A DNA stretch of 64,000 nucleotides from Sphingomonadales bacterium (GTDB taxonomy: Bacteria; Pseudomonadota; Alphaproteobacteria; Sphingomonadales; Govanellaceae), in assembly GCA_019455285.1 (NCBI GenBank), contig JACFMS010000006.1, positions 1 to 64,000 on the forward strand, written 5' to 3'. Shown piece after piece: positions 15,144 to 59,147 of this stretch; the stretch's first letter is position 1; each line of letters begins with the position of its first letter. A model generated the notes under the pieces. The model made no database searches and was not told where the DNA came from. It saw only the letters and a program-made list of their open reading frames with translations. The position numbers and the translations under genes are program-made.

Positions 15144-15155
15144 AAGAGTTGCCCC

Positions 15156-16547
15156 TTACAAGCCCACAAACCACGTCATTAAATCATACAAATCCGGCTC
15201 CGACCGTCCGAGCAGCTTCTTGACGCCGGTTTTTGCTTTGTAAAGCCACTTTGGCTGATCGCCGAAGCGCGAGGCGGGCGGCGTGGTATGATGGCGCAGC
15301 AGCGCCAACAGCTCGCGGTGCAGATTTTTCGCCACCATGGCCGGGTTTTTATAGTCGATGAGGCAACCGGAGCCGACGTACAAGACCTCGCCGCCGTATT
15401 GTTCACTCAGCGCCCGGCGCAAGTAGGAAAAGCGGGTGGTAAACACGATGTCAAAACCAGCGCTTTGCGCGTCTACCACGCGCACCGACATATCCCGCCC
15501 ATGTTTTTCCAGGGCGATGGCGTCGCCGGCATCGCGCAAGCGAATGAGCACGCGATAGTCGCCGCTAAATTCCGCCAGATAATCATGGCACAGCGCCACA
15601 TTCTTTTTTACCAACTCGGCGAGCGCGGCGATGCCGCCCGATGGAATCTTCGAGGTGCGGTTGGCGACCTTGTACTCCTCGGCGAAATCCTGCTTGAACG
15701 CCGCCAGATTTACCGGCTTGAAGCGTTTGTCGGCAATGATGCGCTCGCCATCCATGGCAAAGCCCGGCGCGATGTCGATGGCCTGTGTGCGCGCTTGCGG
15801 GTGCATCTTCGCAAACACGTCGGTTGGCCGTTCGGTATTGTGCACCGGCTCATTGGACCAAATCAGATCGTCGTCGAGAAAGCCCACATCCGCCGCGAAG
15901 GGAAAGGCGAAGCGCGGCTCTAAGTGCGCCATGATCTTCACCCATTGGCGGTTGAAGTGGGCCTGACGGCGGGCCGCGGTGGCCACCCGGTCGGCGCCGG
16001 GGATGACGTAGCAGGCGGGAAAGTGCGAGGCGATGCCGTAGCCGCAAAAGACATACGTCGGATCGGGATATAGCGTCTTTAATTTGGCGAGCACCGTCTC
16101 CTGCACCGCCGCCGGCGCGGCATGCACGGCGTCATTTAAGTTGAGGCACGAGGACTCGCCGTCATCGACGCACAAGATGGTGTCGTCGTTGCAGGTGGGC
16201 ATCAGCCGCGCCCGCACGCCGCCGCCCAAATCCACTTCCTCATCCACACCGATCTCCCACACCTCATAGCCCTGATCGCGCAGGAACGCGCCGACGTCCA
16301 GGGTATTGGAAACCAGGATCTTCTTCACCTTCAAGCGCCGGAGCGTACCGAGGTGCAGGTGATCGTGATGACCATGGGAGATATAGACGTAATCCAGGGG
16401 CGCATCGCCCAGGCTGGCGGTATCGGCGCGGGGATAGACCCACCATTGCGTGCCAAAGCACGGCCCTTCCCACCACGGGTCGGACAGAATGCGCAGGCCC
16501 TTGGTCTCGATCACAATGGCGGCATGGCCGATAAAGGTCACTTTCAT
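15156..16547 (-). CDS. Metallo-beta-lactamase-fold hydrolase (UlaG/CMAH-like)
   Basis: 463 residues. The N-terminal MBL domain (about 1-260) starts VTFIGHAAIVIETKGLRILS and has the metal motif YISHGHHDHLHLG, with further His/Asp ligands likely in YGIASHFPACYVIPGAD and PFAADVGFLDDD. The C-terminal 200 residues are an extra domain, which makes the protein much longer than simple UlaG-type lactonases (about 350). The arrangement recalls proteins related to the Rieske-less CMP-Neu5Ac hydroxylase fold. Substrate unknown. It converges with the ATPase gene (12 bases apart) and is divergent from the transporter. Confidence 0.75.
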   Translation of the reverse strand: MKVTFIGHAAIVIETKGLRILSDPWWEGPCFGTQWWVYPRADTASLGDAPLDYVYISHGHHDHLHLGTLRRLKVKKILVSNTLDVGAFLRDQGYEVWEIGVDEEVDLGGGVRARLMPTCNDDTILCVDDGESSCLNLNDAVHAAPAAVQETVLAKLKTLYPDPTYVFCGYGIASHFPACYVIPGADRVATAARRQAHFNRQWVKIMAHLEPRFAFPFAADVGFLDDDLIWSNEPVHNTERPTDVFAKMHPQARTQAIDIAPGFAMDGERIIADKRFKPVNLAAFKQDFAEEYKVANRTSKIPSGGIAALAELVKKNVALCHDYLAEFSGDYRVLIRLRDAGDAIALEKHGRDMSVRVVDAQSAGFDIVFTTRFSYLRRALSEQYGGEVLYVGSGCLIDYKNPAMVAKNLHRELLALLRHHTTPPASRFGDQPKWLYKAKTGVKKLLGRSEPDLYDLMTWFVGL

Positions 16548-22953: not shown

Positions 22954-24048
22954 TTACCGCGCCGGGACGCCGCCGTCCTTCTGCAGCGCCTCGATCAGCG
23001 CCGCATCGCCGGCCTCACGGGCGAGTTTCAAGGCGGTGTCATGGGCCGCTTTTGCCTTCTCGGCCTCGCCCAGTACGCTATAGGCGCGGGCCAGCCGCGC
23101 CCAGCCTTCACGATCCTCGGCCACCGGACGCAGCCGCGCCGCCAGCCCTTCCACCATGCCGCGAATACGGGCCATGCGCTCCTCGGGCGGCAGGGCGGCA
23201 AGCTCGCTCGCCGCTGAGGAGCGAGCGCTCTCTCCGCCCAGACGGCTCAGGCGGGCCTCCACCTGGGCGCGCCACGGGGCATCGGGAGGGCTGTCGTCAA
23301 GAAGCGACTGCCAAGTCGCCGCCGCCGCCGCTTCCTGCCCGTCTTGCAGGTACATCATGCCGGTATAATAGCGCACGCTGGGATTGGCGGGGTCCACCGC
23401 CGCCGCCTCGCGCAGGGCGAGGCGGGCCGCCGGCCCGATCTGGCCGCCGCCCATGGCGATCAGGCTTTCGGCGTAAAGCGCGCGCAACGTCCCGTCCGTG
23501 GGACGGGCGGCCACCGCGGCCTCCAGACCTTGGGCATAGTCGCCCTCGCGGCGCAGCATCGGCGCCAGCCGGCGCACATGCCCCCAGCCTTCCTGGTCAT
23601 CGGGGTGCTCGGTAAGATACGCGAGCAAGCGGTTCATGGCCTGTCCCATATCGACCTTGGCCGTACCGGTATCAATGACCTGATCGGCGGCCACCAAGGC
23701 CGGCGCGGCGGGCAGCAACGGCGAACCGCTGTTGACGTATAAGAGGATCGCCGCGGTCAGCACGGTCAAGGTCAAGAATATGCTCACTAGGCGCGGTAAG
23801 GGTCGCGCCGCCGCCGTCGTCTCACCGGCGGCCGCCTTCAAAATCCGCCGTTCGACCTCGATCCGGGCGGCGGCTGCGGCGGCGTCATCAAGAAGGCCGC
23901 GGGCGCGGTCGGCATCGATCTCCGCCAGTTGGCGGCGATAGACCGCCACGTCCTCATGACCCTCGACAATCCGGGACGGCCGCAGCAATGGATACATCGC
24001 CAGCGCGAGGCCAAAGAGCACCAAAAGCGACAGCGCCAGCCAGATCAT
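22954..24048 (-). CDS. ccmI: Cytochrome c maturation protein CcmI
   Basis: 364 residues. Two membrane segments (about 2-22 and 88-105) flank a cytoplasmic leucine-zipper-like stretch ([20 protein letters not shown]), and the periplasmic C-terminal half is made of TPR repeats (for example [20 protein letters not shown] and [20 protein letters not shown]). CcmI binds apocytochrome c and hands it to CcmF/H. Last gene of the ccm operon; start overlaps the ccmH stop as ATGA. Confidence 0.93.
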
Positions 24049-24521
24049 GGGCGCTTGGCCTCTTCATCGGTTGCGTTCAAGATCGCCTGCAAGCGTTTCT
24101 CCTCCTCGGCGGTCAAGGGCGCCGCCGCCTCGCGACGACGGCGACGCAGCACAACAATGAGGGTCGTTGCGGCAACAACCACCAAGCCAAGGGGAGCCAG
24201 CCACAACACCATCATGCGGGCATTCATCGGCGGATCTAAAAGCACCCAGTCGCCATAGCGGTCCACGAGAAAGCGTCGCACCGCCGCATCGCTATCGCCG
24301 GCGACGATGCGTTCGCGCACGATGTGGCGCAAATCCTTGGCCAGGTCGGCATCGGATTCATCGATGGACTGGTTCTGGCAAACCAGACAGCGCAGCTCCT
24401 TCATCAGCTCGCGCGCCCGCGCCTCCAACGCGGGATCGGATAGTCGCGCTTCATCAACGCCGACGGCGAGCGCCATCAGCGGATAAAAAATGACGGCCAG
24501 GATGAGCGCCAGTCGTCTCAT
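24045..24521 (-). CDS. ccmH: Cytochrome c maturation protein CcmH
   Basis: 158 residues: signal peptide ([18 protein letters not shown]), a periplasmic three-helix domain with the redox motif [15 protein letters not shown] (LRCxxC), and a C-terminal membrane helix (about 105-125). Reduces the CxxCH disulfide of apocytochrome c. The gene corresponds to the N-terminal half of the fused E. coli CcmH, the other half being ccmI here. Overlaps ccmG by ATGA. Confidence 0.95.
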
Positions 24522-25054
24522 GCGCCCTCCCGCAAGCGCTCGATCAAGGGCGTAAACTTGGTCTTTAGATCATCGTCACTGATCGGCCCGACGTGGCGGT
24601 AGACGATCTTGCCGTCGCCATCGACGACATAGGTTTCGGGCACGCCGTAGACGCCCCAGTCGATGCTGACCCGGCCGCTGCGGTCATAGCCGATGGCGGC
24701 GAAGGGATCGCCCAGACCGTCGAGAAAGGCCCGCGCATCGGCCACATTGTCCTTGTAGTTGATGCCGTAGAGCGCAATGCCTGGAAGATTTTTCAACGCG
24801 CTCAGTTGCGGATGCTCAACCCGGCACGGCACGCACCAGGAGGCAAAGACATTGACGATCTTGACGCCCGGGACGCGCAGCGCCGCGCTGGCCAACCCTT
24901 GCGTCCGACCATCCAAGGGCGGCAGATCGAATTCCGGCACGGCGCGGCCGATCATCACCGTCGGCACCTCGCGCGGCTTTAGCCCAAGGCCGACCCACAA
25001 CACCGCCGCCAGGCCGAGAAAGATCAACAGCGGGAGAAGACTCTTAAGCCGCAT
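24518..25054 (-). CDS. ccmG: Thiol:disulfide interchange protein CcmG/DsbE
   Basis: 178 residues: an N-terminal membrane anchor ([20 protein letters not shown]), then a thioredoxin fold with [15 protein letters not shown] (active site WCVPC at about 71-75) and the cis-Pro region [20 protein letters not shown]. Keeps CcmH or apocytochrome cysteines reduced in the periplasm. Its start lies inside the end of ccmF (11-base overlap). Confidence 0.95.
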
Positions 25055-26990
25055 GCGCCGCCCCTTTCCGCCGCGCCGGCGCGCCGATGCGGTAGCGCCG
25101 GTCGCTCAACGACAACACGCCGCCCAGCGCCATCAGGCCGGCGCCGATCCAGATCCAATACTGCAACGGCTTCAGGTAAAGCCGCACCGCCCAGCCGCCT
25201 TTCGTCTCCTCGCCGATGACGGCGTAAATGTCGCCCACCGCCGTCGGCCGGATCGCCGCTTCGGTGGTGGTCATGGGCGGCGTGGCGTAGGTGCGCGATT
25301 CCGGATAGAGCGTCATGACGGCGCGCCCCTTTTCGCTGACCACCATCACGCCCCGCACCGCGGTATAGTTCGGTCCCGCCACCGGCGCGACGTTTTCCAG
25401 CCGCACGGTGTAGGGGCCGACGCTCAGACTGTCGCCAACGCGCATCACTTCCAAGCTCTCGCGGTTCCACGCGGTGGCGCCGGTGATGCCCAGCACTAGA
25501 ACGCCGACGCCGATATGGGCCGCGCTCATGCCCCACTGCGCGCGCGGCAGCCGCATCCAGCGACCGCCCTGTCGCAATCGGGATGCAAGATCGGTCAGCG
25601 CCGCACCGATCATCCACGCGCCGACGGCAACGCCGAGGAGCGCCAGCACCGGACCGCCCCAGGTGAGATAAGCGACGACCGTCACAGCAATCAACGCCGT
25701 CACCGCAGCGATCCACAAGCGGGAGAGCGCGGTTTTTAAGTCGGCGCGCTTCCAGTTGAGAAACGGCGCCAACCCAAGGGCCACAAACAGCGGCGTCATT
25801 AAGGGAATGAAGACAGCGTGAAAATAAGGCGGCCCCACGGTTCCCTTGGCGCCGGTGAACACATCAAGGAGCAGCGGATATAGCGTGCCGAGAAGCACCG
25901 TCGCTGCCGCGGTGGCCAGCACCACATTGTTCAACACCAGCGCCCCTTCGCGGCTGATGGGCTCGAACAAGCCGCCAGCAGTCAGCGTTTCAGCGCGCAT
26001 GGCGTAGAGCGTCAGGCTGCCGCCGACCACCAGGGCAAGAAAGCCCAAAATAAATACGCCGCGCGCCGGATCGGTGGCAAACGCATGCACCGAGGTCAAG
26101 ACGCCCGAGCGCACCAGGAAAGTGCCGAGAAGCGAGAACGAAAAGGCGATGATGGCGAGAAGCACGGTCCAGCTTTTCAAGCTGTCGCGCTTTTCCACCA
26201 CGATCGCCGAATGAAGGAGCGCGGTGCCCACGAGCCATGGCATGAACGAGGCGTTCTCCACCGGATCCCAGAACCAGAAGCCGCCCCACCCCAGTTCATA
26301 GTAGGCCCACCACGAACCCAGGGCGATGCCGATGGTCAAGAACACCCAGGCAACCAGCGTCCACGGCCGCACCCAGCGCGCCCAGGCGGCGTCCACCCGG
26401 CCTTCCTGCAACGCGGCGATGGCGAAGGCGAAGGCGACGGAAAAGCCGACATAGCCGAGGTATAAAAACGGCGGATGAAAGGCGAGCCCCGGATCCTGCA
26501 GCAGTGGATTTAATCCCATGCCCTCGACGGCCGGCGGCGACAAGCGCTCGAAGGGGTTGGAGGTGAGGAGCAGAAACAACAAAAAGCCCACCGCGATCAT
26601 CGATTCCACTGCCAGCACCCGGGCGCGAAACCGCGCCGGCAAGTTGCGTCCCAGAAGCGCCACCAACGCGGCAAAGAAGGTGAGGATCAGCGCCCACAAC
26701 AACAGCGAGCCTTCGTGATTGCCCCACACGCCGCTGAGCTTATAAAGCATCGGCTTTTCGGTGTGCGAATTGGAGGCAACCACAGCCAGCGAAAAATCGG
26801 AGACCACATAAGCCCAGGTCAGCGCCAGAAAGGCGATCAGCACCAACACGAACTGGCCGATGGTCAACGGCACGGCGGCGGCGATCAGCGCCGGATCGCG
26901 CCGCGCCGCGCCGAGCTGCGGCAGGAGCGCGCCCAGGATCGCCAACGCCAGCGCCAAGGCGAGCGCCAGATGGCCGATTTCGGCGGTCAT
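25044..26990 (-). CDS. ccmF: Heme lyase subunit CcmF
   Basis: 648 residues with about 14-15 membrane segments. The tryptophan-rich heme-handling motif is GWGGFWFWDPVENASFMPWL (about 245); further conserved pieces are WGNHEGSLLLWALILTFF and FHPPFLYLGYVGFSVAFAFA, with histidines expected to bind heme b and the incoming heme. Joins heme from CcmE to apocytochrome c. ATGA overlap with ccmE. Confidence 0.98.
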   Translation of the reverse strand: MTAEIGHLALALALALAILGALLPQLGAARRDPALIAAAVPLTIGQFVLVLIAFLALTWAYVVSDFSLAVVASNSHTEKPMLYKLSGVWGNHEGSLLLWALILTFFAALVALLGRNLPARFRARVLAVESMIAVGFLLFLLLTSNPFERLSPPAVEGMGLNPLLQDPGLAFHPPFLYLGYVGFSVAFAFAIAALQEGRVDAAWARWVRPWTLVAWVFLTIGIALGSWWAYYELGWGGFWFWDPVENASFMPWLVGTALLHSAIVVEKRDSLKSWTVLLAIIAFSFSLLGTFLVRSGVLTSVHAFATDPARGVFILGFLALVVGGSLTLYAMRAETLTAGGLFEPISREGALVLNNVVLATAAATVLLGTLYPLLLDVFTGAKGTVGPPYFHAVFIPLMTPLFVALGLAPFLNWKRADLKTALSRLWIAAVTALIAVTVVAYLTWGGPVLALLGVAVGAWMIGAALTDLASRLRQGGRWMRLPRAQWGMSAAHIGVGVLVLGITGATAWNRESLEVMRVGDSLSVGPYTVRLENVAPVAGPNYTAVRGVMVVSEKGRAVMTLYPESRTYATPPMTTTEAAIRPTAVGDIYAVIGEETKGGWAVRLYLKPLQYWIWIGAGLMALGGVLSLSDRRYRIGAPARRKGAAHAA

Positions 26991-27472
26991 GGCTTAGCCT
27001 CGCTTTCACCTTGCCAGTGGCCGGTTTTCTTCAAGGCGTCGGCGACTTCCTTCGGCATGTAATTTTCATCGTGCTTGGCCAGCACTTCATCGGCGATGAA
27101 GCGACCCTTATCGTCAAGTCGCCCTTCAGCCACCACGCCCTGGCCTTCACGAAAAAGATCGGGCAGCAAGCCGGTATAGCGCACGGTAAAAGCGCCGGGG
27201 CCATCGGTGATGCGAAATTCCGTGGTCTTGCCGTCCTCCAACCGTCTCACCGAGCCTTCTTCCACCAAGCCGCCCATGCGGAAGCGGCGCTCCTGCAAGC
27301 GCAGCTTCGGGTCGTCAAGACGCGAAATCACTTCGCTCGGACCGAAGAAAAACACCACGGTGTCGCGCAGCGCAAACAAAACCAATGCCACCGCGATGCC
27401 CAAGATCGCGGCGGCGATGATGACGACGCCCAGGCGGCGACGCTTGCGGGCGCGGGCCGGACTAAGCGCCAT
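26987..27472 (-). CDS. ccmE: Heme chaperone CcmE
   Basis: 161 residues: a basic N-terminus, one membrane anchor (about 14-34), then an OB-fold periplasmic domain. The heme-linking histidine is in VLAKHDENYMPKEV (about residue 138). Holds heme covalently between CcmABCD and CcmF. The start lies inside the last codons of ccmD (11-base overlap). Confidence 0.97.
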   Translation of the reverse strand: MALSPARARKRRRLGVVIIAAAILGIAVALVLFALRDTVVFFFGPSEVISRLDDPKLRLQERRFRMGGLVEEGSVRRLEDGKTTEFRITDGPGAFTVRYTGLLPDLFREGQGVVAEGRLDDKGRFIADEVLAKHDENYMPKEVADALKKTGHWQGESEAKP

Positions 27473-27653
27473 TGGCCGCCTCCTCCCGACGCCGGCGATG
27501 GGGCGCCGCTCGCTTCAATTCCTCCAGCCGCCGCGACGCCTGACGCGCGCGCACCATGCTAAAAATGGCAATGCCGCCAAGGATCAACAGCGCTGCGCCG
27601 TAGCTCGACCAGACATAGAATGCATAGCCGCCCATGGCGAAAAACGAACTCAC
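27462..27653 (-). CDS. ccmD: Heme exporter protein CcmD
   Basis: 63 residues, easily missed because it is short. From the GTG at 27653, which overlaps the ccmC stop as GTGA, it reads SSFFAMGGYAFYVWSSYGAA, the typical CcmD N-terminus, with one membrane helix (about 14-33) and a highly basic tail rich in Arg. An ATG at 27635 lies six codons in, but the residues before it (FFAMGGYAFYVW) match the family. CcmD helps to release holo-CcmE from CcmC. Confidence 0.88.
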   Translation of the reverse strand: MSSFFAMGGYAFYVWSSYGAALLILGGIAIFSMVRARQASRRLEELKRAAPHRRRREEAANGA

Positions 27654-28387
27654 GCCGCCGCCTCCTCGGAATTGAGCGCGATGGCATCCTCCAGCGCGCG
27701 CACCCGCGCCAGATCCAACTCGGAGCGCATGCGGCGCAACAGCACGCTGACGAAATAGAAGTGAAAGCCGAGCGCCATCAGCACCAACGGCAGGAGCATG
27801 GATGGCGCGATGCTCGGGCCACCCATCTTGATGACGCTGGCCGGCTGATGCAGCGTGTTCCACCAGTCCACGGAAAACTTGATGATGGGAATGTTGACGA
27901 AACCGACCAGCGCCAGAATCGCGCCGGCGCGCACTGCCGCCGCCGGATTGTCGATGGCGTTGACCAGCGCCATGTAGCCCAGATAAAGGAAAAATAAAAT
28001 CAGCACCGAGGTCAGCCGAGCGTCCCACACCCACCAGGTGCCCCACATCGGTTCGCCCCACAGCATGCCGGTGATAAGCGCGATGGCGGTAAAGCCGGCG
28101 CCGATGGGCGCGGCGGCGCGGGCCGCCACATCGGCCAAGGGATGCTTCCAGATCAAGCTGGCGGCGCTGGCCGCCGCCATCACCGAATAACTGAACATCG
28201 CCATCCAGGCGGCCGGCACATGGATATACATGATGCGCACCGTCTCGCCTTGCTGGTAATCGGCCGGCGAGGCAAAAAGTGCGAAATACAATCCGCTGAC
28301 AAGCAGGCCGGCGGTCAGGACATCCGACCACGGGAGGATAATCGAGGCCAGCCGCTGAAACCGTGCGGGGTTGGCAAATCTATGCAT
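27650..28387 (-). CDS. ccmC: Heme exporter permease CcmC
   Basis: 245 residues from the ATG at 28387 (MHRFANPARFQRLASIILPW). The frame extends 11 codons further. Six membrane helices and the tryptophan-rich periplasmic loop WGEPMWGTWWVWDARLTSVL, which presents heme to CcmE. Also conserved: YIHVPAAWMAMFSYSVMAAA. A 68-base gap separates it from ccmB, the only sizeable gap in the operon. Confidence 0.97.
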   Translation of the reverse strand: MHRFANPARFQRLASIILPWSDVLTAGLLVSGLYFALFASPADYQQGETVRIMYIHVPAAWMAMFSYSVMAAASAASLIWKHPLADVAARAAAPIGAGFTAIALITGMLWGEPMWGTWWVWDARLTSVLILFFLYLGYMALVNAIDNPAAAVRAGAILALVGFVNIPIIKFSVDWWNTLHQPASVIKMGGPSIAPSMLLPLVLMALGFHFYFVSVLLRRMRSELDLARVRALEDAIALNSEEAAA

Positions 28388-28455
28388 CACAACACATCCC
28401 AGACGCCCGTAATCCCCCACCCACGGTCGACATCATAGGCACAGCCATTGGTTTG

Positions 28456-29124
28456 TCACTCCAAATCGAACTTCAAGGCCGCCGTCGCCGCTGCGGTGCC
28501 GATCACCACGGCAAACAGCGTCACCCCGAAGAGCAGCATCAGGTGCGGCGCTGGATCGAGCCCCATGCGCGCCGCCTCCACCGCCGCCACGCCGAAGATG
28601 AGCGCCGGAATGTAAAGCGGCAGCACCAGGAGCGAGAGGAGCGCCCCGGCCCGCCGCAAGCCCACCGCCAGCGCCGCGCCAATGGCGCCGATAAAGCTCA
28701 ACCCCGGCGTGCCGAGGAGGAGCGCCAACACCAGGGCGACGAGCGCGTCGCCTTCAAGCCGCATCATCAGGCCGAGAAAGGGCGAAATGATGACCACCGG
28801 CAACAGGCTGGCCAGCCAGTGGGCAAGGCATTTGGCGGCCACCACCAGCGAGAACGGCAGCGGCAACAGCGCCAGGCCATCGAGGCTGCCGTCGTCATGG
28901 TCGGCCTCAAACAGCCGGTCGAGCGACACCACAGCGGCCAATAGCGCCGCCACCCATAACACCCCGGCGGCGATGCGGGCCAAGGTGTTGGGCTCCGGCC
29001 CGACGCCCAAGGGAAACAGCACCACCGCCACGGCGAAAAATACCGTGCCGAGGAGCGCGCCGCCGCCCTGCCGCCAGGCGAGGTTCAGGTCGCGCTTGAT
29101 CAGGGCAATAAGGGTGCGGGTCAT
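28456..29124 (-). CDS. ccmB: Heme exporter permease CcmB
   Basis: 222 residues with six membrane segments. RTLIALIKRDLNLAWRQGG and FEADHDDGSLDGLALLPLPF match CcmB, the partner of the CcmA ATPase in the complex that frees holo-CcmE. Start overlaps the ccmA stop as ATGA. Confidence 0.96.
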   Translation of the reverse strand: MTRTLIALIKRDLNLAWRQGGGALLGTVFFAVAVVLFPLGVGPEPNTLARIAAGVLWVAALLAAVVSLDRLFEADHDDGSLDGLALLPLPFSLVVAAKCLAHWLASLLPVVIISPFLGLMMRLEGDALVALVLALLLGTPGLSFIGAIGAALAVGLRRAGALLSLLVLPLYIPALIFGVAAVEAARMGLDPAPHLMLLFGVTLFAVVIGTAAATAALKFDLE

Positions 29125-29762
29125 GCCGCCGCCTCTGCGTCATAGGGCGAGGCCGCCATTTCCATCACCCGCGCGCCTTCAAGCCCAAGCTCGACGTGGG
29201 TTGCCGCCACGATCATGCCGCCCGCCGCCAGATGGTCGGTCATGTTCCGGGCGAGCGCCGCCACCGCCGCCTGATCGAGAGTCACCGTCGGCTCGTCCAG
29301 GAGCCAAAGGGTCGCCGGCGTGACGAATAGACGCGCCAGCGACACCCGCCGCTGCTGCCCCGCCGACAGCCGCCGCACCTCCAGGTTGGCGAATGCCGTC
29401 GCCCCCGTCTTGGCCAGCGCCGACGCCGCATCAGCCGCGTCGCCGCCCCGGGCTTCGGCCCAAAAAGCGAGATTCTCCGCCGCCGTCAGGATGCCCTTCA
29501 GAGCCAGGCTGTGGCCGATATAATGCAGATCGGCGCGGTGGCTCTCGGGATCGTCGGCGATGGCCACGCCGGCGCGGGTAATATCGCCGGCTTCAGGCCG
29601 CAACAGGCCCGCCAATAGCCTGAGCAGGGTCGACTTGCCGGCGCCGTTGGGACCGCGCAGGATCACCGCCTCGCCAGGGAAAACTGCCAGGTCAAGATCA
29701 CGAAACACCAGCCGGCCGCCGCGCCGCGCCGTCACCTTGCTCGCGACCAGACTATCCGCCAC
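29121..29762 (-). CDS. ccmA: Heme exporter ATPase CcmA
   Basis: 213 residues, ABC ATPase. Walker A is [20 protein letters not shown] (about 36-48), the signature RRLSAGQQRRVSLARLF, and Walker B TLWLLDEPTVTL. First gene of ccmABCDEFGHI. Start is GTG at 29762, with AAGGGGT 10-15 bases upstream; I find no ATG in a better place. Confidence 0.96.
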   Translation of the reverse strand: MADSLVASKVTARRGGRLVFRDLDLAVFPGEAVILRGPNGAGKSTLLRLLAGLLRPEAGDITRAGVAIADDPESHRADLHYIGHSLALKGILTAAENLAFWAEARGGDAADAASALAKTGATAFANLEVRRLSAGQQRRVSLARLFVTPATLWLLDEPTVTLDQAAVAALARNMTDHLAAGGMIVAATHVELGLEGARVMEMAASPYDAEAAA

Positions 29763-29830
29763 CAGAGTATGACCCCTTCAACATTCTTTTACCTCAGCGG
29801 TCTATAGCATGGCGGCCGTCGCCTCGCCTG

Positions 29831-29868
29831 GAAATTCGCCCGCGCCCCTTCACAAAAGGGTGAATTTC
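29831..29868. promoter_or_regulatory. Inverted repeat between ccmA and acnA
   Basis: GAAATTCGCCC (29831-29841) and GGGTGAATTTC (29858-29868) are inverted with 10 of 11 positions matching, and an inner CCCTT/AAGGG pair lies between them. It sits 64 bases before the acnA start and 69 bases upstream of ccmA, in the divergent gap. It could be an operator for either operon or a hairpin in the acnA leader. Confidence 0.4.
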
Positions 29869-29932
29869 GGGCAGAACGACGCCTGATAAAAAACCACCCG
29901 GTCCTACCTTACCTATTCAAGGAGATAACGCC

Positions 29933-32617
<2,685 letters not shown>

Positions 32618-51266: not shown

Positions 51267-51686
51267 TTAAAGCCGGCGCACCGTCGCTCCCTCCACCAGC
51301 ACCCGCGCCGTTTTGACGCCGATGGTGCGGTCGGCAGCCGACTGCAGCACGCCGGCCATGCCATCAATGTCGAGCGGCCGCCGGACGTCGACGCGATTGG
51401 CGGCGAGCCTGGTCAAGGCCATCACGAATTGATCCTGGAGGCGCGGCATCACCGCCAGCACCCGCTCGCGGTCGTCGGCATCGGCCAGCTCCAGGCTGAC
51501 GGTAACGGTCAAGAGACCGCGGGTCTGGGAATCGCGAAATACCGAGACCGTCATCGGCTCCAACGCGATGTGACGCGGCTCGCCGAGCGCCGGCTCCTTG
51601 CTGCCGGCCAGCGCCGAGGTGGCGATAAACCCCGCCAAGACTGCAACCAGGAAGAAACGCCAATAGTAATGGTTTTTGGACATCAT
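51267..51686 (-). CDS. Secreted FliL-like protein
   Basis: 139 residues. N-terminal hydrophobic segment (FFLVAVLAGFIATSALA), acting as signal peptide or anchor, then a domain whose key stretches, LLTVTVSLELADADDRERVL and MPRLQDQFVMALTRLAA, and the ending IGVKTARVLVEGATVRRL recall the periplasmic domain of FliL (flagellar stator-associated protein). It lacks the longer cytoplasmic part of FliL. It follows the FlaEY-like gene by 14 bases, which supports a flagellar or surface role. The family call is by eye and tentative. Starts at ATG 51686, with another ATG immediately after. Confidence 0.55.
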   Translation of the reverse strand: MMSKNHYYWRFFLVAVLAGFIATSALAGSKEPALGEPRHIALEPMTVSVFRDSQTRGLLTVTVSLELADADDRERVLAVMPRLQDQFVMALTRLAANRVDVRRPLDIDGMAGVLQSAADRTIGVKTARVLVEGATVRRL

Positions 51687-51700
51687 TTCGCTCCGCCCGC

Positions 51701-54577
51701 TCAGGTGATGATGCCGCCGCCGGCGATCAGCCGGCTGAGACCGGCCTGATAATTAGCCAGTTGCTTGGCCAGCGCCGGCGGCACCGGTCCGGTGGGCTTG
51801 CTCTGGCTTTTCAAATATTCGGCGAGCGGATCTTTATAGAGCGAGCGGTAGGCGCGCTGCACCTCGGAGATGGCCTCGTTGACCTTGCCCAACAAATACT
51901 TGGCGCCGTTTTCGCTCGCTGCATTCAGTCCATCCTCGAACTTGAAACCGAAAATGCCGCCAAGCTCATCACCGGCGGCGCTTTCGCCATCCTGCTCCTT
52001 CGTGCCAAAGAGCCGGTCGTTGGGGAAAATCTTGGTCGGCGCAAGACCCAGGCTTTTCAAGGCGTCGCGGTCGCCGTCGCCGGCAAATAACTGGATTTCT
52101 GAGCCGTTCTTCACCGATATCTTCAACTTGCGGCCATCGCCGGTGAACACCTCCTCGGCCTTGATATAACGGAGCGACAAGCGATTGATGCGCGACGCCA
52201 GGCGCTCGAAGGTGTCGCCTTCCTGAACCGTTACCTTCATCTTCTTGCCGCTATTGATGGCAATATAAAAATAATCGCCGGCGTGCACCGTGGTCTGTGT
52301 CGTCACGTCGCGGGTCTCGCTGATTTGCAGTGTGCCGGGACCAAGGCCAAGCTTGGTCAAGACCGAATTGCCATTGGACGAGAAGGCAATGCCGGCGGCG
52401 GCGTTATAGCCCGACAGTCCGCCGATCTGCTCCGTCCATACCATCGCCCCGGTCACGCCGTCGACTTTTGCCGCAAAGGCGTCGGTGACGCCGGAGCGCG
52501 GATCGCCGCCGAAGGCGCCGGCGGTTTGCCCCGCCACATAGACGTAGCCGCCGCTCGCCGTCACGTCCTTGATGCCGTCGCCGGCGCTGGTGCCGATGAA
52601 CGCCGTCCATGACGCGCTGGCCGATGCGCCGGCGTCATCGATTTTCACCACATACCCATCCTGCCCGCCGCCATGGCTGCCGATGGCCGAGCCGGCGCCA
52701 AATCCGCTGTTGCCCGTTGAGCCGGCGAGATAGACCGCGCCGCCCTCCACCGCCAAGCCGCCGACGCTGCCCGAGCCAAGATCGCCCAAGTCCACTGCCC
52801 ACAGCACGTTGGAAAAGTCGGCCGCGTCGAGTTTGCGCACCACCGCGCGGCCATCCTCTTCGCTGGCTACCAGAATATTGCCGTCGGCGGCGACGGCGAT
52901 ATCCTTCGCCGTCTCGAAGCCGACGCCGCCGAACAGCGTGGTCGCAGCGATCGCGCCGGAACCGCCGGAAAGCTTGGCGACATAGCCATCGCGCGCGCCG
53001 CCGAAGGTGTTGCCCGATTGCAGGACGCCGCTGGCGTGGCCAGCGATCAGCACGTCGCCCGCCGCGTCAACGGTTACCGCCAACGCTTCATCGGTGGCGA
53101 CGGTATCAAGCTGCTGCTTCCACAGCCGGTCGCCCTCATTGGAGAACTTGGCGACGAAACTGTCGGTGCCGCTAAAGAGCTCGCTGCCATCCACACTGCC
53201 GTCAACGCTGCCGGCGACGATAACATTATCATTATTGTCGATGGCTAGGGCAAAGCCTTCCGCCGCACCATTGGCGCCGAGGAGGCGCTGCCAGACGATG
53301 TTGCCGGACGTATCGTATTTGCTCAGATAAACATCGCTGCCGTCGGAGCGGTTGATTGCGTTGCCCAGATCGCCGGCGGTAGCGCCAACGACGAAGACAT
53401 AGCCCTGGCTGTCGACGGCCACGGCGGCGGCGGCGGTTTCCACCGCCGGCCGATCCGGCGCGTCGGCGGCGGTGTCGATCTCCAGTTCAGTGAACAGATC
53501 GCTTACCTGCTTGCGGATTTTTTCCACCACCGCATTGGTGCGGCCGTTGAGCGGGTCTTCCTCGGCTTCCTCGACTTCCAAGAGCGGCGCGCCGACGCCG
53601 GCGTAGGTTTCCCGCAAGGCTCGCGTCGGATCGCCGCCGTCGACGCCATCGAGCCGGGTCAACGTCGCCGCGCTGATGGCGTCACCGCCGACGGAGCGCG
53701 TCGCGCCGGCGAGAAACAGGCTCGGCTCTTCCACCGCCGCCGACAGGCTCACATCCTCGGCGACCAAGCCGCTGACCGTCAGGGCGTAGCCCTTCCCGGC
53801 CACGCTTTCGACGCCAAAGCGCGCGCTGTACTTGGGCACCGTGTTGCCCCCGCTATCAAGGGTGGTGACCGTGATGATCTGCGAATTGATGTAGCTCGCC
53901 AGCGCGCCGAGCGTGATCGGGCCGGCGATTTGCGACAGGTCGATGACGAAATTATCGGTGACGCCGGATTTGGTGATGGAAACGGTGAATACCTCGTTAC
54001 CGACAATGCCGGGGATGGGATCGTCCTTGGCCCCTTTCTGAATCGCCGCGCCGATCACCTTGGTGCGGTTTTTGCCAAGCCCGATGCCGGTTTCCACGCG
54101 ATTGCTTTTGGCGCCGTAGATCAAATCGAGCTTATCAAGCGCCGCGCCGGTGATGTAATCCTGGATCTGCGACAGGCCTTTCTTGACCAGGATGTCCAGC
54201 GGGCCGCGACTGGCGTCGGTGGTGTTTTTGTCGGCGGCCAGTTCCGCCACCGCTTTGAGGCGCGTATACGCCTGGTAAAGGGTAAAAAGCGCTTTGGCGT
54301 CCTTATTGTCGCCGGCGAGCTTCGCCTGATCGGATTTGGGGTTGATGAAGGATTGCAGCGCCTTGACTTCATTGACCCGCTGATTGAGCGAGCGGGTATC
54401 CTCCGGCTGCTCCCACGGCGTTACCACCGCCGGGCCGCGGGCCGCCTGCGGCGGTGCCAGCGAGGTGCCTGTCAGCAGCGCCGTCTTGGCCTCGTAATAA
54501 GCGCCCAGCATCGACAGATCCAACTGCTGAAAGTTGAACGCCGTCGTCCCCGAGGTGCTGCCGAACAGCGAAACCAT
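51701..54577 (-). CDS. FlaEY-like flagellar regulatory protein with SBBP beta-propeller
   Basis: 958 residues from the ATG at 54577. Length and layout resemble Caulobacter FlaEY. Residues 1-380 include a flagellin-hook-like piece (VFTVSITKSG, then LGALASYINSQI at about 192-231). Residues about 386-731 hold six SBBP-type blades, each with a DGYVAKL / DSFVAKF strand followed by VAGS- or VAGQ-like ends, that is, a seven-bladed-type propeller. Residues about 760-900 return to a flagellin_IN-like stretch (YFYIAINSGKKMKVTVQEGD; FERLASRINR). No signal peptide, as for proteins exported by the flagellar apparatus. Function in Caulobacter: control of flagellin gene expression/filament assembly. No other flagellar gene lies in this window except the FliL-like neighbour. 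Confidence 0.65.
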   Translation of the reverse strand: MVSLFGSTSGTTAFNFQQLDLSMLGAYYEAKTALLTGTSLAPPQAARGPAVVTPWEQPEDTRSLNQRVNEVKALQSFINPKSDQAKLAGDNKDAKALFTLYQAYTRLKAVAELAADKNTTDASRGPLDILVKKGLSQIQDYITGAALDKLDLIYGAKSNRVETGIGLGKNRTKVIGAAIQKGAKDDPIPGIVGNEVFTVSITKSGVTDNFVIDLSQIAGPITLGALASYINSQIITVTTLDSGGNTVPKYSARFGVESVAGKGYALTVSGLVAEDVSLSAAVEEPSLFLAGATRSVGGDAISAATLTRLDGVDGGDPTRALRETYAGVGAPLLEVEEAEEDPLNGRTNAVVEKIRKQVSDLFTELEIDTAADAPDRPAVETAAAAVAVDSQGYVFVVGATAGDLGNAINRSDGSDVYLSKYDTSGNIVWQRLLGANGAAEGFALAIDNNDNVIVAGSVDGSVDGSELFSGTDSFVAKFSNEGDRLWKQQLDTVATDEALAVTVDAAGDVLIAGHASGVLQSGNTFGGARDGYVAKLSGGSGAIAATTLFGGVGFETAKDIAVAADGNILVASEEDGRAVVRKLDAADFSNVLWAVDLGDLGSGSVGGLAVEGGAVYLAGSTGNSGFGAGSAIGSHGGGQDGYVVKIDDAGASASASWTAFIGTSAGDGIKDVTASGGYVYVAGQTAGAFGGDPRSGVTDAFAAKVDGVTGAMVWTEQIGGLSGYNAAAGIAFSSNGNSVLTKLGLGPGTLQISETRDVTTQTTVHAGDYFYIAINSGKKMKVTVQEGDTFERLASRINRLSLRYIKAEEVFTGDGRKLKISVKNGSEIQLFAGDGDRDALKSLGLAPTKIFPNDRLFGTKEQDGESAAGDELGGIFGFKFEDGLNAASENGAKYLLGKVNEAISEVQRAYRSLYKDPLAEYLKSQSKPTGPVPPALAKQLANYQAGLSRLIAGGGIIT

Positions 54578-54674
54578 GCCGCGCCAATATCCCTGCGTTA
54601 GGCGAGGCGCAGAGCCCCGCACAGTCGCATTGTCCGGCGCTTAGGTTAATATTTTGTTAGGAAATTACTCACGC

Positions 54675-56162
54675 TTAGAACTGGATGCCCCAACCGGCCT
54701 CCAAGGCCGCTTTGCCGTCGGAAACGCCGGGGGTGTTCGGCCAATCGTCGGAGTAGCGCGCCTCCAGATCGAAGGTGCCGAAATCCGACGGCACGGTGAT
54801 CCCCGCCTCCAGGGTATGGATCCGCTCCTTGGTGGTGGAGAGGGCATTCTGGCCGGCGTTGTCAATATTGATGTTGGCGCGCTGCACGGCGACGCGGTAG
54901 GTCCAGCTGTCCTTGTCGGTGAACATGCCGCTTAAATACCAGGCGCGGCTGTCGCTGTCGTAGCGGTCGCCCATGACCACATCGTGATAGCGGTAGCCGG
55001 AGCGGTATTTGTTGTGGTTATAAAACACGTTATACTGATGGAAGCGTCCTTTGCCGGTCAAGAACGACACCGTATCGGTGTGTTCGAGGATGAAGCGCAG
55101 CATCTCGCCTTCATTGCCGACCGGGACCAGAAAGCTTGCCCCCAACAGCAACGAATACTTATTGGGAATGGCGTATTTCTGATCCTCGCCGATCATCTGG
55201 CCATAGATCGCCGTCGATATGCTGTCATTGAGGTTAAAGCTGTAACGCACATCATAGCCGGCGAGCTGATTGCTGGGATCGACCTCGCCGGGCTTATCGG
55301 GATTGTCGACGCCAAAGCCGCCGATCAGCGCTTTCGTCCAGATGTTGAAGCCACACGGCCGGCCATCGCCGCACAGCATGATGGTGCGCGACAGACCGAT
55401 GTCGAGATTATCAATGGGGCTGAAGGAAAACCGCATGCCGACGAAGTAGGGATCGCGGATGATCCGCTCGTCATCGTCAAGACGGCCGAGAAAGACGTTG
55501 AACTGCCACGGCCCCAGCCAGCTCAGCCACTTGGTGCCGAAGGGGCGCGGATCAAGTCGCATCAGACCGACGCGCGGCGCGGGACGGGCGTTGGTCGACA
55601 TAATGAGGCTCGACGACCAGCCCGGCCCCCACCAATGATCCAGCCAGCCGCCGTAGATCGCCCAATTACCGAGCGCGAAGGCGAGGTAGCTGCCGTCAAG
55701 GATCAACTTACCGTCCTCGTCATCGCCCAGATAACCCACTGACACGCGGGCCGAAGCGGCGGAGAGATTGACCTCGGCGGAGGCCGTGACATCCGCCTTG
55801 TGGCGCGCCGCGTCGCCGAAATCGCGGCCGATCTTCGCCCTCGACGCGCCGCGGGCGTCGATCCCCAGCCGCGGCCGGCCGATATCATCCTCGCTCGGCA
55901 TTTTGGCTTTCACCCGCGCCAGCGCCAAGCGGATATGCGCCGGCAGGGGCCGGCCGGGATCGTCGTGAAGGCGGGAGGAAATTTGCGCCCAGGGCAGCGG
56001 CCAGGCGGTGATCGGGCCGCGGATCAGGCCATACTGAGCAAGAAGTTCAATATCGCTGCGCAACTGCCGGTCGCCGGCTTCCGCCCAGGGACTGGCATTG
56101 GCCGCGCCAGCGAACGCCGCCGCCATCCCGAGCACCAGGCAAAGCTTAAAGAAGCGCTTCAA
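54675..56162 (-). CDS. Capsule assembly Wzi-family outer-membrane protein
   Basis: 495 residues: a good signal peptide (FFKLCLVLGMAAAFAGAANA), the Wzi N-terminal helices (DIELLAQYGLIRGPITAWPL), then an outer-membrane barrel of alternating strands ending GWGIQF. Other conserved pieces: WAIYGGWLDHWWGPGWSSSL, MRFSFSPIDNLDIGLSRTIM. E. coli Wzi anchors group 1 capsule to the cell surface; other Wzi proteins act with exopolysaccharide. The start codon is TTG at 56162, with AGGGA upstream; the next ATG would cut into the signal peptide. Confidence 0.85.
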   Translation of the reverse strand: MKRFFKLCLVLGMAAAFAGAANASPWAEAGDRQLRSDIELLAQYGLIRGPITAWPLPWAQISSRLHDDPGRPLPAHIRLALARVKAKMPSEDDIGRPRLGIDARGASRAKIGRDFGDAARHKADVTASAEVNLSAASARVSVGYLGDDEDGKLILDGSYLAFALGNWAIYGGWLDHWWGPGWSSSLIMSTNARPAPRVGLMRLDPRPFGTKWLSWLGPWQFNVFLGRLDDDERIIRDPYFVGMRFSFSPIDNLDIGLSRTIMLCGDGRPCGFNIWTKALIGGFGVDNPDKPGEVDPSNQLAGYDVRYSFNLNDSISTAIYGQMIGEDQKYAIPNKYSLLLGASFLVPVGNEGEMLRFILEHTDTVSFLTGKGRFHQYNVFYNHNKYRSGYRYHDVVMGDRYDSDSRAWYLSGMFTDKDSWTYRVAVQRANINIDNAGQNALSTTKERIHTLEAGITVPSDFGTFDLEARYSDDWPNTPGVSDGKAALEAGWGIQF

Positions 56163-56261
56163 TTTTCCCTATCCCCCTGGATTCGGCTGCTTAAAAAACA
56201 CATCAGCCGCGGACGCTCTTGCCTATCATGGCGGGAACGACGACGCCAACTTTTTTTGCCG

Positions 56262-58694
56262 TCAGGCGATTTTAATGGGGGGCGGATTTGCCGGCGCAGC
56301 AACGTGCGCTTTCGACCATTGGATAAACTCCTCCACCGGCAGCGCGGCGGCGTAATGATACCCCTGCCCGATATCGCAGCCGAGAGCCGTGACCTCGCGG
56401 GCGTGCAGCTCGGTTTCGACGCCTTCGGCGACGACGCTGACCCTGAAGCTGTGGCCCAGGCCGGCGATGGCCGAAACGATGGTCCGCGCCCCCTGGTCGC
56501 CGATCGCTTCGCGGACGAAACTGCGGTCGATCTTGATCTTACTGACCGGAATACGCCGCAAGTAGCCGATCGAGGCATAGCCGGTGCCGAAATCGTCAAT
56601 CGCCAGACACACCCCCAGATCGCGCAGCCGGCTCAAGGTGCGACGGGCGTCCTCGTTGTCGCTGATCATGATGCTTTCGGTAATTTCAAACTCCAGCCGC
56701 CGCGGGTCGATGCCGCTGTTGTCCAGCATGGAGCGCACGAGATCGGGAAAATCGGCTTTACGCAAATGAATGGGCGATAAGTTGATCGCCACCTTCAGCG
56801 GCGGCAAGCCGCAACGATCCCACGCGACGATCTGCTGGCACACTTCCGGGATCATGCGTTCGGTCAGCGGGATGATGAGGCGCGACAGCTCGGCGGCGGG
56901 AATGAACACGTCGGGCGACATCCAGCCGCGCTCGGGATGCCGCCACCGCAACAGCGCTTCAGCGCCGACCAGCTCGTTGGTCTTTAAGTCAATTTGCGGC
57001 TGATAATGATAGATAAAATTCTGGCTGTTGAGATCCTGGCGGATATCCTCGATCATCGCCACGCGGGCCCGCTGCTCGGCCTCCATGCTACGATCGAAAA
57101 TGGCGACGCCGTTGCCGTCATCTTGCCGCGCCCGTTCCAGCGCGATGCCGGCGCTGCGCAGCAACACCTCGGACTCGCCGTCATCGTAGGGAAATATGGT
57201 GGCGCCGGCATAAGCATCCAGCGACATATTTTCCGGCAACGCCGGCAGGCGTCCGCGGATGGCCCCCAGCATGGTTGTCGCGCGATGCGCCAGCGAGGTC
57301 TTGGTGACGTCGGTTACGACAGTTATGGCGAACTCGTCGCTGCCGATGCGACCGATGGTCTCGCCTTCCTGCTTGGCGGCGATCAGACAGGCGGCGACGT
57401 GGCGCAGCACTTCATCGCCCAGTCGCGCGCCGAAGGCATCGTTGATGTCCTTAAACGCGCCAATATTAATCACGACGATGCCCACCGGCTGATTGGCCTG
57501 GCGGGCGCGGGTGATGGTTCGATCAAGAGCGCGCCGGAACGCCACGCGATTGGGCAGTCCGGTCAAGGGATCGCGGCGCGAGGCCTGGAGCAGCGCATCG
57601 GCGGCGGCCTGACGGGAAACCGACACATCCTCCAGCGTCAGCACCCAGCGATCATCGGGCAGCCGGCGGCCGGTCACCGCGACGGTGCGGCCATTGGGGG
57701 CGGTGAATTCCCGCTTTAATTCGGCCACTCCCGAGCCGGGAGCCAGTTCGGCCAGCGTCTTGGCGACGCGGGCCTGAGCTTCGGCGGCGACCAGGCCCAG
57801 CTGGTCGTAATGACGGCGCAAGACGGCTTCCAACAAGACGCGATCCTGGGCCGGATCGAATGCCTTCAGCGCGGGGATGAGCTCGGCAAACAGCGGGTTC
57901 CATTGTTCAAGACGGCCGTCGCGCCCGATCACCGCCACCGCGACGTTGATGTAGCCGAGGATGGCGGCGGCGCGATCGCAATCCTTGCCGTGCAAGTACG
58001 CCTGCGCCGCATATCTCGCTTCAAGCTCGGCGATCTGCCGCCGGGCGTCCGCCGCGGCGTGGGTCAGCGCCTCCAGGCGGTAGACCGCCCACAGCGCACC
58101 GACGAGGAATATACCCAGGCCGACGCCCAGCACCGGATCGAACGTTTCCGCGCCGACCAACGGCGCCGCCATGGGCAGCAGCAGCAGGGGAATGAGCGCG
58201 CTGACCGCTGCCCAGGCCGACGCCGCGCCCAAGGCGACCGCGGCGATGGTGACCGCCAGCCAGGGCAGGAACAATGCCGGATGGGTCAAATCCACATCCA
58301 TGTAAACCAGGGCGGCGAGAAACCCGCCCCAGGCCAGGCCGTGAACGGCCGTCAGCATGCCCATGGCGCGCCGCCACCACGACAGCGGCCGCGTCGCCGG
58401 CGCATAATACCGCCGGGCGGATAACCACAGCCGCATGCCTTCGATGGCCAGCACCAAGAAGAGCCAGCCAAGCTCCACGCCATGATGCAGGGACGGCAGG
58501 AAAGTGGCGACGATCAAGGCGGCGACGACGCTGGCGATGGCTTGCAGCGGCGTTTGCCGCACTAGGCCGTCAACCTCGTCGGCGAGCCCCGCCCAATCGA
58601 CCGCGCCCGTCGGATCGGTTGACCCGATTGCTCGGATCGACCCGTCGGGCCGCTCTAGCCGCGGGAGGACTATGCGACTATAGGGCAGAAACAC
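56262..58694 (-). CDS. Membrane GGDEF/EAL protein (c-di-GMP turnover)
   Basis: 810 residues from the GTG at 58694, which has a perfect AGGAGGT site; the open frame begins with a TTG 20 codons earlier. Layout: about five or six membrane helices (50-210), a PAS-like domain (about 240-360; NVAVAVIGRDGRLEQWNPLF), a GGDEF domain (about 370-530; RDPLTGLPNRVAFRRALDR), whose signature is GRIGSDEF, and an EAL domain (about 555-800) with GAEALLRWRHPERGW, the catalytic loop DDFGTGYASIGYL and VAEGVETELHA. The EAL half looks active as a phosphodiesterase; the GSDEF variant and lack of an RxxD I-site suggest a weak or lost cyclase. PAS and membrane parts would sense a signal. Confidence 0.92.
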   Translation of the reverse strand: MFLPYSRIVLPRLERPDGSIRAIGSTDPTGAVDWAGLADEVDGLVRQTPLQAIASVVAALIVATFLPSLHHGVELGWLFLVLAIEGMRLWLSARRYYAPATRPLSWWRRAMGMLTAVHGLAWGGFLAALVYMDVDLTHPALFLPWLAVTIAAVALGAASAWAAVSALIPLLLLPMAAPLVGAETFDPVLGVGLGIFLVGALWAVYRLEALTHAAADARRQIAELEARYAAQAYLHGKDCDRAAAILGYINVAVAVIGRDGRLEQWNPLFAELIPALKAFDPAQDRVLLEAVLRRHYDQLGLVAAEAQARVAKTLAELAPGSGVAELKREFTAPNGRTVAVTGRRLPDDRWVLTLEDVSVSRQAAADALLQASRRDPLTGLPNRVAFRRALDRTITRARQANQPVGIVVINIGAFKDINDAFGARLGDEVLRHVAACLIAAKQEGETIGRIGSDEFAITVVTDVTKTSLAHRATTMLGAIRGRLPALPENMSLDAYAGATIFPYDDGESEVLLRSAGIALERARQDDGNGVAIFDRSMEAEQRARVAMIEDIRQDLNSQNFIYHYQPQIDLKTNELVGAEALLRWRHPERGWMSPDVFIPAAELSRLIIPLTERMIPEVCQQIVAWDRCGLPPLKVAINLSPIHLRKADFPDLVRSMLDNSGIDPRRLEFEITESIMISDNEDARRTLSRLRDLGVCLAIDDFGTGYASIGYLRRIPVSKIKIDRSFVREAIGDQGARTIVSAIAGLGHSFRVSVVAEGVETELHAREVTALGCDIGQGYHYAAALPVEEFIQWSKAHVAAPANPPPIKIA

Positions 58695-58850
58695 ACGACC
58701 TCCTGTCGCCACAGGTTTTTTTGTTGCGTTTATTGCCCATATCTTTACCGGCAATTTCTTTCTTCGAAGTTAAGTTTAGCCGCCAAGGGTTGCGCGTGAC
58801 CCGCCAAGGGGTTAAATCTGAACCCTTGTTGCAGGGGCGGAGCTTTCAGC

Positions 58851-59147
58851 ATGAATGCGCTTTTTTACCTTCTGGTAACTCTCATCAATCTTTACCAGTT
58901 CGTCCTCATTGCCATGGTGGTGATGAGCTGGCTCATATCCTTCGGAGTAATCAACACCTATAACCGCTTCGTCGCCACGCTGTGGGAGGTCCTAAACCGG
59001 CTCACCGAGCCGCTGCTGCGGCCGGTGCGCAACATCCTGCCTAATCTCGGCGGCCTGGACTTATCGCCGGTGGTTGTCCTGATTTTACTTCAGGTGTTGA
59101 AAGTTTTTATCGTCAAGGATCTGGCGGCGGCACTCGGCGTTTACTAA
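58851..59147 (+). CDS. YggT-family membrane protein
   Basis: 98 residues with two hydrophobic stretches (about 3-27 and 62-85), one YggT repeat (FVATLWEVLNRLTEPLLRPV and RNILPNLGGLDLSPVVVLIL). Implicated in other bacteria in osmotic shock tolerance and cell-division neighbourhoods; function not firmly known. Followed by the DUF167 gene after 12 bases, the common yggT-yggU pair. Confidence 0.9.
   Translation: MNALFYLLVTLINLYQFVLIAMVVMSWLISFGVINTYNRFVATLWEVLNRLTEPLLRPVRNILPNLGGLDLSPVVVLILLQVLKVFIVKDLAAALGVY

Follow-up and report, generated by a model that had tools for sequence, protein, structure and literature searches.

Four genes lie in series on the minus strand of the window, by which we mean the whole 64-kb stretch of DNA that was analysed, next to a divergent block of yggT, a DUF167 gene and folD (Table 1). 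The original prediction of four co-directional genes at this site holds, as all four open reading frames (ORFs) are present where it had placed them. The intergenic gaps from GGDEF/EAL through Wzi and flaEY to the FliL-like gene are 99, 97 and 14 bases. The second gap is 52 bases when flaEY is read from the GTG that opens its ORF (54622-51701); the ATG at 54577 is the likelier start. The gene identities that had been proposed stand only in part. Pfam supports the GGDEF/EAL and Wzi assignments, and the Wzi ORF belongs to PF14052 with 256.1 bits against a cut-off of 30.1, whereas the resemblance to FliL is distant and below cut-off (Pfam FliL PF03748, E 2.5e-4, 21.9 bits against 24.6). Since the canonical FliL of this genome is found on another contig (C13, E 2.4e-21), the small product encoded downstream of flaEY is treated here as a distant FliL-like protein. 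In the FlaEY-like protein, Pfam recognized a beta-propeller repeat only (SBBP E 4.2e-5). None of the analyses run returned the name FlaEY for it; the name is that of the original prediction and follows annotation practice.

Table 1. Features of the flaEY locus and the evidence used to assign them
Feature	Position	Strand	Evidence or remarks
yggT	58851..59147	+	Pfam YGGT E 9.3e-22; heads divergent yggT-DUF167-folD block
PAS-GGDEF-EAL membrane protein	56262..58754	-	Pfam EAL E 1.4e-71, GGDEF E 2e-28, PAS fold
Wzi-family outer-membrane protein (PF14052)	54675..56162	-	Pfam Caps_assemb_Wzi E 7.6e-76
CtrA-like box CTAACAAAATATTAAC	54645..54660	-	Between Wzi and flaEY; 68-83 bases before the ATG of flaEY
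FlaEY-like protein, 958 aa	51701..54577	-	AlphaFold2 model, Foldseek, VIA, Flagellin_IN, hhalign against FliD
FlaEY C-terminal domain (profile A4)	51704..52372	-	Flagellin_IN, Foldseek
FliL-like protein, small, secreted-looking	51267..51686	-	NCBIfam FliL E 1.1e-8, under cut-off

The catalytic motifs of EAL domains, namely EAL, NLS, ITE, DDFGTGY, KID and AEG-ET, were seen by eye to be intact in an alignment of all four copies of the GGDEF/EAL protein from the window's family (the window, G001, G002 and G003), and the window protein is likely a c-di-GMP phosphodiesterase. This family-specific protein retains its EAL residues, but its GGDEF motif is eroding: the window copy reads GSDEF and that of G002 AADEF, and G003 has GGDEF.

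A flaEY match was obtained in 45 of 59 relatives from the order, and the genes of the window were mapped onto 40 of these loci. In 38 of the 40, yggT is divergent from flaEY, mostly at a distance of 175 to 500 bases and usually with folD next to it. In 34 loci flaEY has a co-directional FliL-like gene downstream of it, as found with a profile of 12 genes of which 11 come from the 40 loci, so that the matches arise partly by construction; one of the six loci lacking it (L032) stops at a contig edge. A GGDEF/EAL gene lies between yggT and flaEY in three loci (G001, G002 and G003), all from the window's family, and is missing from that place in the other 37. Wzi occupies this place in two of the same three. 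Of 60 genomes, 24 have genes of the Wzi family, but these adjoin flaEY only in the window genome, G001 and G002. Because GGDEF/EAL and Wzi are confined to the window's family at this place, they are best read as an insertion upstream of an older flaEY/FliL-like unit. GGDEF/EAL, Wzi and flaEY stay together in two genera of the family at a FlaEY identity of 59%, and a local functional link among them is possible there. Of the functional unit that had been proposed, gene order in relatives thus retains the flaEY/FliL-like pair and dissolves the four-gene arrangement outside the window's family; a four-gene switch as a conserved unit is ruled out by the 40 loci.

Two further observations concern the neighbourhood of flaEY in other genomes. 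All 21 relatives in which more than 250 bases separate flaEY from the FliL-like gene have a conserved non-coding element in this gap, roughly 100 bases long and up to 91% identical between loci (L045:11628-11754, L060:11532-11666, L052:11529-11660, L034:8310-8437 and others); 15 of the 21 built its profile. At its end stands TGCCA, often with a T-rich stretch. It contains no tRNA, has no match in the window and shows little covariation (RNAalifold), and Rfam searches at gathering score returned nothing for it, nor in six flaEY loci. In two Robiginitomaculum genomes (L103:10629-13976 and L112:10556-13936), the opposite-strand neighbour of flaEY encodes about 1,120 residues, with TPR repeats in the L103 copy.

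The element CTAACAAAATATTAAC is a CtrA-type box with one mismatch to the consensus and the sole match in the 64 kb to YTAAN7TTAAC (0.11 expected). The 41 flaEY upstream regions, which are related to each other, were compared with mononucleotide shuffles; when no more than one mismatch is allowed, a CtrA-like box is present in 15 of them (shuffles: mean 2.9, largest 6) and a sigma-54-like site in 6 (shuffles: mean 0.05). No sigma-54-like site with up to two mismatches was found upstream of flaEY in the window. The box, situated between Wzi and flaEY, probably marks a promoter of flaEY's own, separate from Wzi, which would be under flagellar or cell-cycle control.

The full-length AlphaFold2 model of FlaEY (38 sequences, mean pLDDT 79.8, pTM 0.74, low confidence at both ends) consists of N-terminal helices, a beta domain, a CylK-like propeller (about residues 381-735), a second beta domain resembling flagellin-IN and FliD D2 (about 748-856) and C-terminal helices. 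The propeller superimposes on CylK with a Z score of 44.3 and 2.4 A over 363 residues (VIA), and CylK alone stands out in a PDB sequence search (query A1), besides one TRIM3 row at E 0.46. CylK is an enzyme; nothing suggests catalysis by FlaEY, and beyond the common propeller CylK showed no tie to IN-type proteins or to the flagellum. Because the Foldseek and VIA lists for the whole protein were filled by beta-propellers, the C-terminal domain (C-domain) was modelled alone. Foldseek then gave FliD or flagellar cap and junction complexes in 14 of the top 15 rows, with a best E of 0.08 and none below 0.001. In VIA the top match was a Vibrio flagellin (Z 8.1, 86 residues, 2.6 A); a baseplate protein of a phage, a second flagellin and three FliD entries (Z 7.3, 7.1 and 6.8) came next. 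In sequence, Pfam Flagellin_IN was recognized in 26 of 45 FlaEY C-domains (best E 1.1e-6; E 0.022 for the copy in the window), and hhalign aligned the C-domain with FliD at a probability of 93% (E 2.6e-7). A D2/D3-type beta domain with the flagellin-IN fold, which is a feature of the FliD family, is therefore found in FlaEY by Pfam, hhalign, Foldseek and VIA. The N-terminal domain (N-domain) has no relation to FliD (hhalign probability 0.8%), a weak one to the C-domain (3.6%) and no meaningful Pfam match.

FlaEY is also depleted in cysteine, which is absent from 58 of 62 distinct FlaEY sequences, as it is from all six FliD sequences. The neighbouring proteins in the window contain 2.4 to 20.5 cysteines per thousand residues, save for the FliL-like protein, which has none. 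Axial flagellar proteins are cysteine-poor. No Sec signal was seen by eye at the N-terminus, and searches of Pfam and NCBIfam gave no DNA- or RNA-binding domain. The IN motif, the fold and the lack of cysteine fit an exported axial protein and not a cytoplasmic regulator. Together with flagellar co-occurrence, the IN-type fold and cysteine depletion are broad features of axial proteins, and FlaEY is probably one of them. Its export would presumably proceed through the flagellar secretion system.

The distribution of FlaEY is complementary to that of the filament cap protein FliD (HAP2). Of 60 genomes of the order, 46 were counted as having FlaEY, 53 have flagellin and 52 have FliF, and FliD_N and FliD_C both match in one identical set of 11; two of the FlaEY counts (G022 and G027) are weak propeller-level matches, without which the figure is 44. 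No genome of the 60 has both FlaEY and FliD, and every one of the 53 with flagellin has exactly one of them (42 FlaEY, 11 FliD). The FlaEY-counted genomes without flagellin are G022, G027, G044 and G050. In the window genome, FliD_N (PF02465) and FliD_C (PF07195) have no match anywhere. FliD is confined to 11 members of one family of the order (f5); G052, which also belongs to f5, lacks FliD and has FlaEY together with flagellin and FliF. It may be that FliD came into this family with a replaced flagellar system, in which case the exclusion reflects few independent events.

At the level of the class, the C-domain profile gave 20 strong matches in 193 genomes, FliD was found in 41 (one below cut-off), and no genome has both. 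Of the 110 class genomes with FliF, 17 have FlaEY, 38 have FliD, none has both and 55 have neither; by family, the corresponding figures for 76 families are 13, 31, 0 and 32. Fisher tests, in which genomes or families are treated as independent, gave 1.7e-11 for the order; for the class they gave 3.5e-4 when genomes were counted and 4.8e-4 when families were. What speaks most strongly against a simple exchange of FlaEY and FliD is the large group with neither protein. In these 55 genomes the flagellum apparently works without both, so exclusion need not mean substitution. The profile of the N-domain, run over the same 193 genomes, is strong in 19, which are those of the C-domain list except G076. 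A divergent FlaEY hidden in the 55 genomes was considered and rejected, as the N-domain profile adds only three weak matches (G099, G171 and G203).

The C-domain profile also produced weak matches in 17 genomes, in eight of which the match falls inside an ORF likewise marked by FliD_N. Outside FliD, weak matches occur in FlgK (L159), in FlgE (L161, from G138) and, as judged by eye, in a FlgK-like protein (L160, from G129); those of G129 and G138 lie in ORFs other than the FliD of these genomes. Further weak matches are those of G160, G233, G234, G110, G199 and G185.

Elsewhere, flaEY is found in flagellar surroundings. In G085, it is situated between FlgI and a run of FliH, FliF, FliN, a sigma-54 activator and FlhA. 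A flagellar cluster including flaEY is also carried by a Sphingobium conjugative megaplasmid, NZ_CP081002.1 (L215, 426629-459193), where flaEY is beside FliH, FliF and FliN, and FliK, a rod protein and MotB are encoded within the same 33 kb. In G050 (L018/L070), flaEY contains internal stop codons, and FliF and flagellin were not detected, which is what is expected if flaEY serves the flagellum only.

Gene order, domain content, cysteine depletion, exclusion with FliD and the flagellar clusters of distant relatives were all computed directly. The explanation that we consider best for them, at roughly even odds, is a two-gene flagellar unit with a family-level insertion, whose FlaEY is an exported axial protein doing the job of FliD. 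The ancestral unit would have consisted of flaEY and the FliL-like gene, divergent from yggT-folD, and the c-di-GMP phosphodiesterase gene and the Wzi gene would have been inserted upstream of flaEY in the window's family. FlaEY would then be an axial-type protein rather than a regulator, built from a flagellin-IN/FliD-D2-like domain, terminal helices and a beta-propeller as outer head, with almost no cysteine. In FlaEY-bearing lineages it would take over from FliD, which presupposes export, a position at the filament tip and capping activity. FlaEY and FliD have in common the IN/D2-like beta domain, helices at both ends and the lack of cysteine. FlaEY differs in being about twice as long, in having the propeller between two beta domains and in its unrelated N-domain, and neither FliD_N nor FliD_C has a Pfam match in it. 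The axial assignment draws on several computations of differing kinds; the further step to a cap, which draws on mutual exclusion and fold resemblance, is possible. We therefore put forward only tentatively, and with somewhat less confidence than the explanation as a whole, that FlaEY is a second and distinct kind of filament cap, in which an IN-fold axial protein with a propeller head replaces FliD in some alphaproteobacterial lineages and has the FliL-like protein as its dedicated partner. If so, a protein that has long been classed as regulatory would turn out to be structural, and there would be a cap that follows another plan and is headed by a beta-propeller.

Capping could also be the wrong role for an axial FlaEY. 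It may be a hook-associated or other axial component, such as a junction protein, a minor part of the filament or a propeller-bearing surface decoration belonging to one kind of alphaproteobacterial flagellar system. The IN fold is common to flagellin, FlgK and FlgE and thus marks an axial protein and not a cap specifically, and the best VIA match of the C-domain is indeed a flagellin. FlaEY resembles these three in fold and flagellar context and differs from them in having no Pfam match to Flagellin_N, FlgK_D1 or the rod family. A non-cap role would also agree with the half of the FliF-bearing class genomes that lack both proteins, and FlaEY and FliD might exclude each other because they belong to two alternative flagellar systems. 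We regard such a role as rather unlikely, given that the one-or-other pattern has no exception among the 53 genomes of the order with flagellin, the mixed family f5 included, and that FliD dominates the top Foldseek rows. Excerpts of published work describe FliD as missing in Rhizobiaceae (PMC6913195) and in Rhodothalassium (PMC11762602) and as present in Azospirillum (PMC12826043); a passage of a Brucella review gives a FliD gene from KEGG, at odds with the reports of absence (PMC8781033). The literature search, which covered sources in excerpt, gave no description of the replacement of FliD in any alphaproteobacterium and none in which FlaEY is an axial protein or a cap.

The usual annotation makes FlaEY a regulator of flagellin expression. 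Passages of a paper on Sphingomonas sp. WG place flaEY in a flagellar cluster, name the product a possible regulatory protein, cite effects of Caulobacter flaE/flaY on flagellin genes and mention raised fliC expression in a Sphingomonas S2M10 mutant of flaQ, a FlaEY homolog (PMC8921679). The FlaEY/FlaQ "regulatory protein" of Caulobacter and Sphingomonas, likened to the window protein by name and flagellar-cluster place, is probably of the same family; the domain content found here argues for a structural, exported protein instead. The flagellin-IN domain, cysteine depletion, a propeller of extracellular type and the lack of a DNA- or RNA-binding domain make control of flagellins by FlaEY, as the original prediction had it, doubtful, and we consider the regulator reading improbable. 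Raised flagellin expression could also come from a defect in filament assembly, and the published regulatory phenotype would then be feedback from that failure. Least probable, and by our estimate very unlikely, is a single switch by which c-di-GMP would control capsule and flagellum through all four genes. The shared strand, the short gaps, the intact EAL catalytic residues and the joint presence of GGDEF/EAL, Wzi and flaEY in G001 and G002 are in its favor, and they are outweighed by the scarcity of GGDEF/EAL (3/40) and Wzi (2/40) at the flaEY loci of relatives and by the CtrA-like box in the 97-base gap before flaEY.

Two stretches of the window outside the four-gene block differ in base composition. 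Positions 14001-16000 have a GC content of 0.528, compared with about 0.63 elsewhere, and hold an ORF of 481 residues. Positions 24001-30000 show a strong positive AT skew of 0.16 to 0.29 over 6 kb.
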